From: Candidatus Zixiibacteriota bacterium
Lineage (GTDB): Bacteria > Zixibacteria > MSB-5A5 > GN15 > PGXB01
Reading direction: 5' to 3'
DNA: 64,000 nucleotides
Assembly (NCBI GenBank): GCA_016933955.1
Contig: JAFGTT010000031.1
Span: 1-64,000, forward strand
The notes below the pieces were generated by a model that ran no database searches, was not told where the DNA came from, and saw only the letters and a program-made list of their open reading frames with translations. Every line of letters begins with the position of its first letter. Positions within the stretch are counted from its first letter, which is position 1. The position numbers were made by a program, and so were the translations under genes. Below are positions 42,523 through 48,450 of this stretch, one piece after another.

Positions 42523-45453
42523 ATGAGCCTAACCTCACATCAAAATGCAAGTTTTGATACCAGGCTGCTTGAGATTGAGGAGCTATACCGCCAAAGAAAG
42601 CCTGATCTCGCCGGTGAGCAGCTGAAAGCCTTGGCTCCTGATGATTTTAAATCGGAGGGATTCGAGCGAGGGCTTTATCTGTTACTTCAGGCGACCGATC
42701 AGCTTCACTCCGGGAATTACAAGGAGTCTATCAGACTTGGGCTGGAAGCCAACAAGTTGCTGGCCTCCTCGGCTTTCCACCTGCGGGTGGGGCAGTTATT
42801 TCTGTTATTGTACAGGAACTATTCCGGTCTGGGTGATTTTAGAAACGCCGAGAGGTATGCTCAGGATGCGCTGGCCTTTTTAAGAAGGGCCGATGACAGC
42901 ATTGGTATGGTGGGGGCGCTGAACGGTTTGGGCAAGCTCGCGTATATTCGCGGAGATTTTTCCAAATCAATTGAATTCATTACCGAGGCTATCGAATTAT
43001 CGCGGGGCGACAATATTCGTATGGCCGAACTGATCGGCAACCTTGGCCGAATCGAGCTTCTGGCCGGTGGTTGGCAGAATGCCGAGGATCATCTGGGAAC
43101 GGCCCTGAAGCTGGCCGGGGAACTCAATCAACCGCTATCAATAGCCCGCGGCTATCTTTCGCTGGGGCACCTTTATTTAAGACAGAGAAAGTTTAACCAG
43201 TCGGCGCAGGAATTCCGGGCGGCCGAGATTTTGATTGAGGCCAATAATTACCGCCGGGACCGGATTATTATGCTTGAGCTTGAAGGTGAACTGGCCTTTG
43301 AGCTGGGTGATATGATTCAGGCCCGAAAGGTTTTGACAAGGGCCTTTGATCTTGGCCGGGAACTGGCCCCGGAATCGGCTTTGATTACCCAGATAACGCG
43401 CCGGATGGCTCAAGTGGAATTGGCTCTTGATAATCTTGATGAAGCTTTGACATTGGCCCAGCGGGCGCTTGATCTGGCGGCCAGGCTGGGAGAAAAAGCC
43501 GAAATAGGTTTGAGCCGGATGATAATCGCCGAGATTTTTTCGGCTCGCGACAATAATCCCTCGGCTTTTGAATATTCGGAAAGCGGTCTTGAGATTCTGC
43601 GCGAAGTCGGTGATCCTTATGATTTGGGCCGGGCGTTGTTGATCCAGGCCAGGATTGCCAGTCAATCCAAGACAATAGGATTGAGCAAGATTGATAAATT
43701 GTTCGATGAGGCGTTCCGGATTTTTAACCAATTGAAATTATTCTACTGGTCGGCTGAAACCAGATTCCGGCAGGGCATTCTTTGCTGTCAATATTCAAGA
43801 ATTTCCAGCGGTTTTAGAAATTTGCTGGAAAGCGAAAAGATTTTTGAAAACATTTCTGAGAAGGCCAAGATTCGATCGGTCCGGCTATTCAAACAGGAAT
43901 TATCCAAGATAGCGGTAACGGCATCACTTTCAGCCGATAATGAATTCAAGATTTTCGGGGATTATTTTACCGAGACGGAATATTCGAACCTGAAAACGGG
44001 CCAAATCCAGAATATAATTGATATACTGAGTCAGCGGACAAGAGCCAGCCGGGTGATTATTTACAAGGCCGGGCAACAGGCTCATGATGCCCTGACCAAT
44101 CTGGATTTAACGCAATTGCAGCGCCGCCGCTTTATCCAGCAATTCGATGATTTGCTGGGCGAGGAATTTAATCCGGACAAACCGACGCTGATTCTTGACA
44201 GCCGGAGAGACCCGTTCATAAACGATCTTCTCCAACCGGGAGGGAACGAGGTCATTTCGAGTGTTATGGTAATTCCGCTTATGATGGGGAAACAGGTTTC
44301 CGGCTATGTTTATCTTGACCGGTTGTCATCGAACGGGGATTTCCGGCCGTTCGGGCAGAAGGAGTTAAATTTCGCGGTCAGTTTTGCCGATTTGATTTCT
44401 CTTAAGATGGCCGAATACGAGAAGTTTCTCCTGGAAGAAGAAAACCGGAGGTTGAAATCCCAGTTAATGGAGGAGGCCGCTTTTCCCAACATTATAACCC
44501 AGAACAAGCAGATGCTGGAAATGCTGGCCAGGGTTCAGCAAGTGGTGAATTCCAATATCTCCATATCCATCGAGGGTGAAACGGGGAGCGGCAAGGATCT
44601 TCTGGCCAAGACGATTCATTACAGTTCCAACCGTAAAGACCGGCGTTTTATTTCGGTTAATTGCGCCGCCCTGCCGGAAACCTTGCTGGAATCGGAGCTT
44701 TTCGGTCATAAGAAGGGCGCTTTTACGGGGGCCGACCGTGACAAAACGGGGCTCTTTGAAGAGGCCAACGGCGGGACTTTTTTCCTCGATGAAATAGCCG
44801 ACATGCCGTTGTCGATTCAGGCTAAGGTTCTTCGTATTCTGGAAGAAAAGGAGATTGTCCGTCTGGGTGAAACCCGGCCGATCAAAGTCGATGTTCGTAT
44901 TATTTCGGCCACCAATAAGGATTTGAAGGTGGAAATGGAGGCCGGTCGGTTTCGCCAGGATTTATATTATCGTTTAACGGCTCTATGTTTTAAGATTCCG
45001 CCGCTTCGTGAGCGAAGGGAAGATATTCCGCTTTTGATCGATCACTTTGCGGAAGAAAAGGTAAAATTCGCGCCGGAGGTTTTGCGAAAGCTGATTACCT
45101 TCGACTGGCCGGGTAATGTCAGGGAACTTGAAAATGAAATAAAGAAATTGATATTACTGACCGGTGAAAAAGGGATTGTCGATGTTAAACTGCTTTCCGG
45201 CAAAATCCTCGACCGGGAGGATCGGGAAGACTCATATGAGATGACTCAGCCGTCGGATGTGAATTTTGACGCCCAATTTTCACTTTACGATTATCTGGCC
45301 CAGTACGAGCGGCGATTCATTATTAAGGCTCTCAGGGAACAGGGCGGGGTTAAGAAACATGCGGCCGCCATTTTGAACATTCCCGAATCAACCCTGCGTC
45401 TCAAAATCAAGCAGTATAATATCGACCTCAAGAACCTGAGTATCTCCGGTTGA
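42523..45453 (+). CDS. TPR-GAF-sigma54-dependent transcriptional activator
   Basis: A 976-residue regulator. TPR-like helical repeats fill about residues 1-450, a GAF-like domain spans about 484-636, and a short coiled coil joins it to an AAA+ domain with Walker A GETGSGKD (near 684), GAFTGA near 731, Walker B FFLDEIAD and the Arg-finger region LRERREDIP. A Fis-type HTH closes it (KKHAAAILNIPESTLRLKIK, near 943). The intact GAFTGA means it should contact sigma54. There is no receiver domain, so the signal is likely a bound ligand or protein. It resembles MalT-like TPR sensors joined to an NtrC-type output. Confidence 0.93.
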   Translation: MSLTSHQNASFDTRLLEIEELYRQRKPDLAGEQLKALAPDDFKSEGFERGLYLLLQATDQLHSGNYKESIRLGLEANKLLASSAFHLRVGQLFLLLYRNYSGLGDFRNAERYAQDALAFLRRADDSIGMVGALNGLGKLAYIRGDFSKSIEFITEAIELSRGDNIRMAELIGNLGRIELLAGGWQNAEDHLGTALKLAGELNQPLSIARGYLSLGHLYLRQRKFNQSAQEFRAAEILIEANNYRRDRIIMLELEGELAFELGDMIQARKVLTRAFDLGRELAPESALITQITRRMAQVELALDNLDEALTLAQRALDLAARLGEKAEIGLSRMIIAEIFSARDNNPSAFEYSESGLEILREVGDPYDLGRALLIQARIASQSKTIGLSKIDKLFDEAFRIFNQLKLFYWSAETRFRQGILCCQYSRISSGFRNLLESEKIFENISEKAKIRSVRLFKQELSKIAVTASLSADNEFKIFGDYFTETEYSNLKTGQIQNIIDILSQRTRASRVIIYKAGQQAHDALTNLDLTQLQRRRFIQQFDDLLGEEFNPDKPTLILDSRRDPFINDLLQPGGNEVISSVMVIPLMMGKQVSGYVYLDRLSSNGDFRPFGQKELNFAVSFADLISLKMAEYEKFLLEEENRRLKSQLMEEAAFPNIITQNKQMLEMLARVQQVVNSNISISIEGETGSGKDLLAKTIHYSSNRKDRRFISVNCAALPETLLESELFGHKKGAFTGADRDKTGLFEEANGGTFFLDEIADMPLSIQAKVLRILEEKEIVRLGETRPIKVDVRIISATNKDLKVEMEAGRFRQDLYYRLTALCFKIPPLRERREDIPLLIDHFAEEKVKFAPEVLRKLITFDWPGNVRELENEIKKLILLTGEKGIVDVKLLSGKILDREDREDSYEMTQPSDVNFDAQFSLYDYLAQYERRFIIKALREQGGVKKHAAAILNIPESTLRLKIKQYNIDLKNLSISG

Positions 45454-45657: not shown

Positions 45658-45687
45658 TTTTGTCGCCTTTCGGTTCCGAGAAACCGA

Positions 45688-45714
45688 TTGAAATCCGGCG
45701 AGTTTTATTATATT
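45688..45714 (+). promoter_or_regulatory. Promoter immediately before the HIT gene
   Basis: TTGAAA (45688-45693), a 15-nt spacer and TATATT (45709-45714). The start codon is at 45723, so the transcript would begin within 1-3 nt of it, and no ribosome site is present. Confidence 0.45.
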
Positions 45715-45722
45715 ATTGATCT

Positions 45723-46244
45723 ATGGGGAATAAACATATCTGGGCTCCGTGGCGCGCCGAATATATTCTGGGAAAGAAAGAAAAAGGTTGTATCTTCTGT
45801 AATCGTTTGAAAAAGCGAACTGATGAGAAAAATCTGATCGTCTATCGCGGCCCGAAAGTATTCGTGATACTCAACAGATTTCCCTATAACTCGGGTCACA
45901 GCATGGTGGTTCCCAATCGCCATGTCGACAGTCTGAGTGCCCTGACGCATGAAGAGCTGTGCGAATTTATCGACACCATCCGTGTGACGGTTGAGGTTAC
46001 GCGAGAGGCTTTCAATCCGGATTCTTTCAATATCGGAATGAATATGGGTCATGGCGCCGGGGCCGGTATTCCGGAGCATATTCATATGCATGTCGTGCCT
46101 CGCTGGAGTGAGGATACCAATTTCATGCCGGTTATCTGTGACACCGAAGTCGTCTCTTTTCCCCTTGACATGATTTATAAAAAGCTGAAAAAAGGATATG
46201 ATGGACTATGCCTCGGCGGAAAATCCCGACCAAAGCGGAGTTGA
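45723..46244 (+). CDS. HIT-family diadenosine-polyphosphate hydrolase/phosphorylase-like
   Basis: A 173-residue HIT protein. WAPWRAEYI near the start, CIFC, and the triad HIHMHVVPRW followed by TNFMPVI match the Ap4A phosphorylase/FHIT-like bacterial group. It would break down dinucleoside polyphosphates or related nucleotides. Its last 37 nt overlap the start of the aconitase-like gene, which suggests coupled translation. The tail is basic (GGKSRPKRS). Confidence 0.9.
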   Translation: MGNKHIWAPWRAEYILGKKEKGCIFCNRLKKRTDEKNLIVYRGPKVFVILNRFPYNSGHSMVVPNRHVDSLSALTHEELCEFIDTIRVTVEVTREAFNPDSFNIGMNMGHGAGAGIPEHIHMHVVPRWSEDTNFMPVICDTEVVSFPLDMIYKKLKKGYDGLCLGGKSRPKRS

Positions 46245-47830
46245 TCCAGCTTCAAAAACTCTATAAGACCGACGAAAAGATTGCCGAGCGGCTGGGCAAT
46301 ATTTCGCCGCAACTGGTGGCTTACTGGCGGCGGAAGAAAAATATTCCCAAGCATTCTTTCCCCAAGTTTTCGCGGCAGGAAATCGCGGATCTGTGGGAGC
46401 GATTCGGTGATGATTACCGGTGCGGTCTGGAACTGGGGATTTCCAAAGCGGCTTTTTATAACTGGCGGCGTAAGTACGGCCTGAAAGAGAAGCCGGCCTT
46501 TTTGAAGCTGGAGCAGTTGGAACTGGATCTGGGCGGACCCAGCAAAAGTACCGGTCGGAAGGCGAATTACGGTCATCAAACCATCACCCAGAAAATCCTG
46601 GCTGAAACGGCCGGACTGGAGCGGGTCGAACCGGGGGAAATGATCGAAGCGGAGCCGGATCTGGCTCTGTCGAATGATAATACCGAGCAGGTCATAAGGC
46701 AGTTTTTAAGTTTCGGATTAAGCTATGTCTGGAATCCGAACCGGATTGTGATTGCCCTGGATCATAATGCCCCGGTTTCTTCGCTGGCCGCGGCCGAGGG
46801 GCATCGGGCAATCAGGGAATTCGTCAAAAGGCAGAATATAAAGTATTTCTATGATGTTCGGGAGGGTATCTCGCACCAGTTGATTATCGAACGGGGGCAT
46901 ATTCTTCCGGGGCAGTTCGGGGTTGGAACCGATTGCCATGCGACCTCGTATGGAAGTATCGGCGCTTTTGCGACCGGGATCGATACCGAGGAGATGGCGG
47001 CGATCTGGGCCACCGGGAAAATCTGGATCAAAGTCCCGCCGACCATAAAGATTATTATCAACGGCCGGATGCCAATCGGGGTTTTTGCCAAGGATGTTAT
47101 TTTATTCGTGGCCAGTAAGCTGAAATGTGACGGGGCAGTTTACCGGGCGATTGAGTTCAACGGGAACGCGGTCAGCCAGATGTCCATCTCGGAACGTTTT
47201 ACCATGACCAATATGGCCATGGAGTTGAATGCCAAGGCGGCCATATGTTCATTCGATACCATCACCCGCCGTTATCTTTCCGGCCGGACCAAGATGCCGT
47301 ACAGGCCGGCCCTGCCTGATAAGGATGCTCTTTACGATGAAACGTACGAATTCAATATCGATCAACTGGTGCCGCAGATTTCCTGCCCGGATAAGGTGGA
47401 TAACGTTGAGACCGTGGCCGATCGGGCCGGACTGCCGGTGGACCAGGTGGTGATCGGGTCATGTACCAACGGCCGATTTGATGATCTTCGAATTGCCGCA
47501 GATATAATCAAGGATAAGAAAATTCATCCCGAAGTGCGTTTGTTGATATTCCCCGGATCACGGGAAATCTATCTTGAGGCGCTGAAGAAAGGTTTGATCC
47601 GGGCCCTGGTGGAAGCCGGAGCGATGATTATGAGCCCGGGATGCGGTTGTTGTACCGGTCTGCACCAGGGAATTCTGGCAGCCGGGGAGAGATGTCTGGC
47701 CACGACCAATCAAAATTCCCGGGGGCAGATGGGTTCCCCGGAAGCAGAAATATATCTGGTGTCACCTGCCACCGCCGCCGCTTCGGCCCTGCGGGGAGTC
47801 ATCACCGATCCCACCGGTTATTTCAAATAA
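46208..47830 (+). CDS. Aconitase-family large subunit with N-terminal HTH-like fusion
   Basis: A 540-residue protein. Residues 1-100 hold two similar helix-turn-helix-like units (IAERLG-x-ISPQLVAYWRRKKNIP and LELGISKAAFYNWRRKYGLKEKP). The rest follows the aconitase/IPM-isomerase large-subunit fold: D185-H186, D242-C243-H244 where aconitase has Asp-Ser-His, SCTNG with cluster Cys419, and C479/C482 in GCGCC. The substrate-contact arginines of the NRNFxGR segment are Gln502 and Gln507. The family dehydrates and rehydrates 2-hydroxy acids; the substrate here is unknown. AAAGGA precedes the ATG. Confidence 0.8.
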   Translation: MPRRKIPTKAELIQLQKLYKTDEKIAERLGNISPQLVAYWRRKKNIPKHSFPKFSRQEIADLWERFGDDYRCGLELGISKAAFYNWRRKYGLKEKPAFLKLEQLELDLGGPSKSTGRKANYGHQTITQKILAETAGLERVEPGEMIEAEPDLALSNDNTEQVIRQFLSFGLSYVWNPNRIVIALDHNAPVSSLAAAEGHRAIREFVKRQNIKYFYDVREGISHQLIIERGHILPGQFGVGTDCHATSYGSIGAFATGIDTEEMAAIWATGKIWIKVPPTIKIIINGRMPIGVFAKDVILFVASKLKCDGAVYRAIEFNGNAVSQMSISERFTMTNMAMELNAKAAICSFDTITRRYLSGRTKMPYRPALPDKDALYDETYEFNIDQLVPQISCPDKVDNVETVADRAGLPVDQVVIGSCTNGRFDDLRIAADIIKDKKIHPEVRLLIFPGSREIYLEALKKGLIRALVEAGAMIMSPGCGCCTGLHQGILAAGERCLATTNQNSRGQMGSPEAEIYLVSPATAAASALRGVITDPTGYFK

Positions 47831-47955: not shown

Positions 47956-48450
47956 ATGAATATGATAATAACCGGAAGGACTGTTCTTCTGGGTGATAAT
48001 ATATCCGCCCGGATGATTTATCCGGATGAAGGCAATAAATCCTTAAATCCGGCGGAAATGGCGGCGCTTTTATTTAACGGGATTGGCGACACCGACCATC
48101 CCCGGTCAAACGTTGATGATATTATCGTGGCCGGGCGCAATTTCGGTATCGGGGATAACAGTCTTCCGGCAATAATGGCTTTACAAGCCGCCGGGATCAG
48201 GGGGATAATCGCGGTTTCGTTCGGACGGTATTTCTTCCGACGGGCCATCAATCATGGTTTGCCGATTATAGAAGCGGAAATGCCGGGAGGGCTTGCCGGC
48301 GGTCAGCAGATCGAGATAAACCTGTCCGGCGGGAAAATATCCTTTCCCGGGGGCGAGAAATTTTTTCAGCCTTATCCTGATTTTATCCTGAGGATTATTG
48401 AAGCGGGCGGATTGATCCCATCGGTGACCGCTGGAGTTTCACGCAGATAA
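47956..48450 (+). CDS. Aconitase-family small (swivel) subunit, active-site motif altered
   Basis: A 164-residue protein with the LeuD-type fold (ILDGR-like start IITGRTVLLGDNI; AVSFGRYFFRRAINHGLPII). The hallmark loop NFGxGSSRE is NFGIGDNSLP (from residue 62): both serines and the Arg that act in catalysis or binding are replaced. Either the enzyme uses other residues for another substrate, or it has lost activity. It most likely pairs with the large subunit 125 nt upstream. A second ATG at 47962 is also possible. Confidence 0.75.
   Translation: MNMIITGRTVLLGDNISARMIYPDEGNKSLNPAEMAALLFNGIGDTDHPRSNVDDIIVAGRNFGIGDNSLPAIMALQAAGIRGIIAVSFGRYFFRRAINHGLPIIEAEMPGGLAGGQQIEINLSGGKISFPGGEKFFQPYPDFILRIIEAGGLIPSVTAGVSRR

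Follow-up and report, generated by a model that had tools for sequence, protein, structure and literature searches.

The window (the whole 64,000-nucleotide stretch of DNA that was analysed) encodes a protein in which a duplicated helix-turn-helix (HTH) head is fused to an aconitase-fold body. The fusion is somewhat more likely than not a DNA-binding regulator that was derived from an isomerase of the aconitase family, a bifunctional ancestor having given rise to a transcription factor whose isomerase body is a pseudo-enzyme. Loss of catalytic residues beside a near-unchanged head in most members of the family suggests that an enzyme was converted to a gene regulator. The computed features on which this reading draws are (i) the fold, (ii) the fusion, (iii) its distribution, (iv) the losses of catalytic residues, (v) a reversal of constraint between the two domains, and (vi) a conserved promoter element. 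A broader proposal, on which the judgement is evenly balanced, is that the fusion forms a phylum-wide family of core transcription factors derived from a bifunctional isomerase and equipped with a type of tandem HTH that lies outside present family models. Numerous parallel losses of catalysis, with DNA binding retained, would have left a graded natural series from intact enzyme-regulator to pseudo-enzyme regulator.

The fusion gene and its locus

The fusion gene lies between a HIT-family gene and a gene for an isomerase small subunit:

45723..46244, + strand: HIT-family (Ap4A-hydrolase-like) gene (Pfam HIT, E 1.9e-17; HxHxH kept)
46208..47830, + strand: open reading frame of the HTH2-(pseudo)isomerase fusion, 540 aa (Pfam/NCBIfam profiles, full-length model)
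47956..48450, + strand: LeuD-like small subunit, degenerate, with GDNSL for GSSRE (LEUD_arch, E 5.8e-33)

The 3' end of the HIT gene overlaps the fusion gene by 37 bases in the window, an arrangement that is a feature of the window's family (f1). The fusion starts at the ATG at 46208, and a start-site artefact of the overlapping HIT frame is ruled out, as both this start and the head are kept in homologues. The small-subunit frame is followed by rho on the opposite strand. Upstream of the HIT gene (42523-45453) lies a 976-aa protein with TPR repeats, a GAF domain, a sigma-54 AAA+ domain and a Fis-type HTH, which is also found upstream in two other genomes (G004 and G007). An Rfam search of the window gave no matches.

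Distribution and origin

A profile of 31 head sequences matches 120 of the 132 Zixibacteriota genomes and 76 of the 78 of high quality, and it has no match in 254 bacterial genomes from outside the phylum. Each genome has essentially one full-strength copy, in an open frame that is ~480-600 aa long in nearly all; a recent fusion in one genome is ruled out by this phylum-wide presence. Across 84,980 scanned species genomes, the complete fusion is confined to records of this phylum and one record labelled Ignavibacterium (L037), the matched stretch of which agrees with that of a member of the window's own family (G005). Those fused isomerase domains that were tested fall into a single clade (SH-aLRT 99); thus, a single fusion event is the simplest reading. 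Second, very weak head matches are noted in G082 and G115, and the window's genome (G000) has a weak second match of its own on contig 36 (L095, 178752-178958; E 0.0014, 34% identity), which includes one in-frame stop.

The double HTH head

The N-terminal region consists of two HTH units and a linker:

46232..46336, + strand: HTH unit 1, residues 9-43, recognition helix LVAYWRRKK (AlphaFold2, alignment)
46373..46477, + strand: HTH unit 2, residues 56-90, recognition helix SKAAFYNWRRKY (AlphaFold2, alignment, hhalign to unit 1)
46508..46564, + strand: linker, residues 101-119, predicted disordered (pLDDT < 50)

The AlphaFold2 model of residues 1-111, built with 38 homologues, has two three-helix units of the HTH fold (pLDDT ~90), with helices at residues 9-19, 22-28 and 34-43 in unit 1 and at residues 56-66, 69-76 and 80-90 in unit 2. 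Homology between the two units is evident from a comparison of their profiles (hhalign probability 94.6, E 7e-8, 26% identity) and is missed by single-sequence BLASTP. The recognition-helix regions, YWRRKK and NWRRKY, are ~80% identical among 64 homologues from the whole phylum, compared to 40% for the isomerase domain. The first-pass annotation, which described two similar N-terminal HTH-like units with basic recognition helices of a W-R-R-K type, is borne out by these results, and the two outcomes it named as fatal, a fold unrelated to HTH or a disordered and unconserved N-terminus, are countered by the confident model and the conservation across the phylum. Chance HTH-like sequence is likewise ruled out by the alignment and the model. 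The linker is unconserved after residue 106 (24% identity for residues 106-121 in the 64 homologues).

Profiles of known HTH families, which the same annotation looked to for an assignment, match the head weakly and all score below the curated Pfam cut-offs (HTH_23, 23.8 vs 24.6; HTH_Tnp_1, 22.2 vs 24.1; HTH_17, 21.2 vs 27); thus, the head would escape ordinary annotation. No structural relative of it is significant in Foldseek, where the Mos1 transposase is the best match (E 0.13), and the weak top matches of Foldseek and Pfam are the HTHs of DNA-binding transposases and regulators. The best sequence match in the PDB, adenosine deaminase 2amx (E 0.0016), is taken as chance, and a search for viral relatives of the head found none.

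A candidate operator upstream of the HIT gene

One conserved element lies in front of the operon:

45679..45690, + strand: AGAAACCGATTG, candidate operator, a conserved element that overlaps the promoter's -35 region (de novo motif search)

The element, AGAAACCrtTTG, is found de novo in all 11 of the regions upstream of HIT in family f1, at -44 to -46 from the start codon, with a log-likelihood of 86.7 compared to 31-38 for shuffles; the window's copy begins at -44. A TATATT-like -10 box follows on the 3' side, and the 3' half of the element may be a -35 box to which the AGAAACC part is extra. Exact matches in the genomes of f1 relatives lie mostly inside open reading frames, while those placed at promoters belong to the HIT-fusion operon; the exact motif search found no regulon, as total matches are near the control. 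As the -35 region of this operon is the one promoter-like location at which the 12-bp element was found, autoregulation is testable, and the fusion protein is predicted to bind AGAAACCGATTG. The upstream regions of family f4, however, yielded no motif comparable to the f1 element even though the recognition helices hardly differ between f1 and f4, and nothing beyond the -10 box was found to be common to all upstream regions. Thus, the element could belong to an ordinary promoter or be the site of another factor, and its link to the protein is hypothetical.

A role away from DNA, in which the tandem HTH would bind RNA or a protein partner and act post-transcriptionally, as in IRP1 and the bacterial aconitases, or as an assembly factor, appears rather unlikely. 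Aconitases are known as mRNA-binding moonlighting regulators (PMC6978683), some HTH folds bind RNA, and no DNA-binding family scores above its cut-off for the head; yet, the recognition helices are basic and near-invariant within a duplicated three-helix HTH, the closest matches (weak as they are) are HTHs that bind DNA, and the operon carries the conserved promoter element in f1.

The aconitase-fold body and its active site

The body and its scored active-site positions, numbered as in pig aconitase, are as follows:

46577..47815, + strand: LeuC/HacA-type aconitase-fold domain, residues 124-536 (PRK00402, E 3e-157; hacA_fam, E 2e-150; TM 0.93 to 4kp1)
46934..46936, + strand: S166-equivalent, now Cys (GTDCH for GTDSH)
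47153..47155, + strand: E262-equivalent Glu, residue 316, kept in 64 of 64 homologues
47462..47464, + strand: first Fe-S ligand Cys (C358-equivalent), kept
47642..47653, + strand: second and third Fe-S ligand Cys (C421- and C424-equivalents, PGCGCC), kept here and lost in most homologues
47711..47728, + strand: substrate arginines R447 and R452 (NRNFKGRMG) changed to Gln (NQNSRGQMG)

The body belongs to the LeuC/HacA family (NCBIfam TIGR01343/PRK00402), with 500.8 bits against a cut-off of 385.7 for hacA_fam and 523.5 against 385 for PRK00402, and it falls short of the LeuC equivalog (TIGR02083, LEU2; 441.1 bits vs 610.65). In the full-length model (pLDDT 88), it superposes on MJ0499 (PDB 4kp1), the large subunit of an isopropylmalate (IPM) isomerase of M. 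jannaschii, with a TM of 0.93. Retention of the active site was scored in 64 fusion proteins at 13 residues shared without exception by eight archaeal/WOR-3 reference enzymes. Of these 13, 10 are present in the window protein, including the three Fe-S cysteines (C419, C479 and C482) and the DH pair; the protein departs from the rest of the set (DH, H147, DSH, E262, N446, R447 and R452) by S166 to C, R447 to Q and R452 to Q; its small subunit has GDNSL instead of the catalytic motif GSSRE. The 'full isomerase large subunit' of the earlier description thus stands for the fold and fails for the active site.

The E262-equivalent Glu, which resides in an IE[FY]xG motif, is the sole one of the 13 residues present in all 64 homologues. 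Three arginines, R354 and R355 (47267-47272) and R465 (47600-47602), are newly near-invariant in the degenerate families f1-f4 and not in functional enzymes; these residues possibly form a new anion site or an interface.

Repeated loss of catalytic residues

All 13 catalytic residues are kept in 7 of the 64 homologues, which fall in families f6, f12, f13 and f14 and have a GCGSSREQ small subunit; this intact motif is found at loci L130, L137-L141 and L154. At the other extreme, families f5, f9, f10, f18 and f19 have 1-2 of the 13 residues left, and their scanned members all match Pfam aconitase over part of its length, three of them just below the cut-off. When mapped with irreversible loss onto a tree of the HTH head and HIT protein (a quick search with a midpoint root and several weak forks), the residues require a minimum of 5 losses of the full catalytic set and of 13 losses of the Cys triad. 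A [4Fe-4S] link, while possible in the window protein on the strength of its three cysteines, thus cannot be general. Among the 57 degenerate members, retention is 28% for catalytic positions and 53% for 71 other positions that do not vary in functional enzymes, the catalytic value being the lower of the two in 56 of these 57, which argues for loss of catalysis beyond mere divergence.

An enzyme that is still active on a changed substrate, with the lost residues reflecting a new specificity, the HTH regulating or localising the activity and the protein bifunctional in all lineages, is unlikely. The 10 of 13 residues, three Fe-S cysteines and small-subunit gene of the window's member are in its favour, as are the intact fold and the continued purifying selection; by contrast, Cys, Asp/His, Ser and Arg residues are lost in combinations that differ between lineages, unlike one new specificity, many lineages are without an adjacent small subunit, and some members are without any Cys and match the Pfam Aconitase model over part of the domain. 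As the catalytic residues are lost in most lineages, often with the small subunit, the body is better read as the sensor or oligomerisation part of a pseudo-enzyme.

Neighbouring genes across the phylum

Of 41 loci, 38 have a clustered HIT frame ahead of the fusion gene and the remaining three have a tblastn HIT match, and the HxHxH motif of this neighbour is kept. An adjacent small subunit is found in only 12 of the 41 loci and is absent beside most degenerate members. In several genomes, the stand-alone isomerases of the phylum adjoin genes of LeuD-, dehydrogenase- and synthase-like types (by clustering and sequence); unlike these, the fusion genes have no such setting and are accompanied by HIT. 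In the window's genome, no stand-alone LeuC was found; its three other matches are aconitase-like proteins with lengths of 647-672 aa. None of the 132 Zixibacteriota genomes has a bacterial-type LeuA that reaches the TIGR00973 cut-off and, thus, a simple 'leucine operon regulator' is set aside; LeuA-like synthases under the TIGR00973 threshold seem present beside some stand-alone isomerases.

The constancy of HIT, which is kept upstream where the small subunit is lost and is probably translationally coupled to the fusion by the overlap in the window, could also mean that the HTH head and HIT mark a regulator of nucleotide (Ap4A-type) stress signalling, with the pocket re-tuned to an adenylate or another non-acid ligand; however, the pairing could reflect co-transcription alone, and this reading is very improbable.

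A shift of constraint from enzyme to head

In two pairs of intact enzymes, dN/dS is 0.087 and 0.103 for the HTH and 0.048 and 0.052 for the isomerase domain, compared to 0.015-0.049 for the HTH and 0.066-0.123 for the isomerase domain in the degenerate pairs with finite estimates, the sample being of few pairs, some saturated at synonymous sites. The order of constraint between head and isomerase is thus reversed once catalysis is lost. Both domains are far below 1, which indicates that the presumably dead isomerase body still does something. Within it, the segment of residues 361-380 retains 84% of its few conserved positions, even in the most eroded set.

A decaying gene with the isomerase domain as a pseudogene-like relic is hardly credible. 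In its favour are the progressive erosion of the active site, the loss of the small subunit and an in-frame stop in one homologue (L018); it is contradicted by the isomerase dN/dS, which is well under 1 in the degenerate pairs too, and opposed by the long open frames of nearly all homologues across the phylum, by the conservation of structural residues and by the retention in the 361-380 segment. The stop in L018 (G039 contig 69) is an in-frame TAA after ~270 codons and is due to recent decay or a sequencing error.

A proposed route from enzyme to regulator

In the proposed route, a duplicated HTH module would have been fused in a Zixibacteriota ancestor to the large subunit of a LeuC/HacA-type isomerase, beside a HIT-hydrolase gene and with the small subunit behind. 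This ancestor was probably bifunctional, an isomerase and a regulator in the manner of the trigger enzymes PutA or BirA, and would have signalled its own metabolite or Fe-S state via the HTH head. A few lineages retain the complete active site, and a working enzyme-regulator may hold for these (f6, f12, f13 and f14). Most lineages, that of the window included, would have lost catalysis repeatedly, often along with the small subunit, while purifying selection on the head remained strong. The non-catalytic body may then sense a ligand and/or oligomerise and so alter how the tandem HTH is seated on DNA, the ligand being an organic acid or perhaps an Fe-S cluster in members with three cysteines. 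In f1, the likely first target is the protein's own promoter, at AGAAACCGATTG. The parts of this route that are predicted are DNA binding, autoregulation and other targets, the ligand and the absence of activity. The first-pass claim of a metabolite-linked regulator by design survives in its dedicated module of a nucleic-acid-binding type, which is conserved phylum-wide and under tighter constraint than the enzyme part, and not in its working isomerase beyond these four families.

Enzyme-derived transcription factors are usually viewed as finished products; here, one gene displays the whole path, from a start with a complete active site and small subunit, through intermediates such as the window's member, to end points with almost no catalytic residues. 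The switch of constraint from enzyme to DNA-binding domain is measurable, which makes the question of how enzymes become regulators testable on orthologues. For an uncultured phylum, the fusion also provides a candidate core regulator, one that is mostly labelled an isomerase under present domain models.

Comparison with known systems

In the open-access journal literature, no HTH-aconitase/IPMI fusion, phylum-wide presence of one or repeated conversion to a pseudo-enzyme was found described. The closest relatives of the body are the LeuC/HacA enzymes MJ0499 (4kp1) and MJ1003 (4kp2), with a fold TM of 0.93 and Foldseek-aligned identities of 45% and 42%, and the order of large- and small-subunit genes is shared with such enzymes in part of the phylum only. 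By contrast to these enzymes, the fusion adds an N-terminal double HTH, has HIT as its constant gene neighbour and is without the full catalytic set in 57 of 64 homologues.

The bipartite transposase heads of Mos1 (mariner) and IstA similarly have two consecutive HTH units and give the best, non-significant structure matches. The fusion differs from these in that its sequence similarity is not significant, it has no transposase domain and it is a single-copy gene kept across the phylum.

IRP1/cytosolic aconitase and bacterial AcnA/AcnB are, like the fusion, aconitase-fold regulators with a possible Fe-S link. IRP1 and AcnB, however, bind RNA with the aconitase body itself, whereas the fusion has a separate N-terminal HTH module, and most fusion members are without cluster ligands.

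The joining of an enzyme and a DNA-binding repressor in one chain is a known principle, exemplified by PutA and BirA (PMC6978683). The fusion has this trigger-enzyme architecture, with an enzyme domain and a DNA-binding-type domain in one conserved chain. As in PutA, BirA and NadR, the last a trigger enzyme with a fused DNA-binding domain, its own operon or pathway is the expected target. None of these three is known to have an aconitase/IPMI fold or this duplicated HTH. PutA, BirA and NadR are catalytically active, whereas most members of the fusion family have lost catalytic residues.
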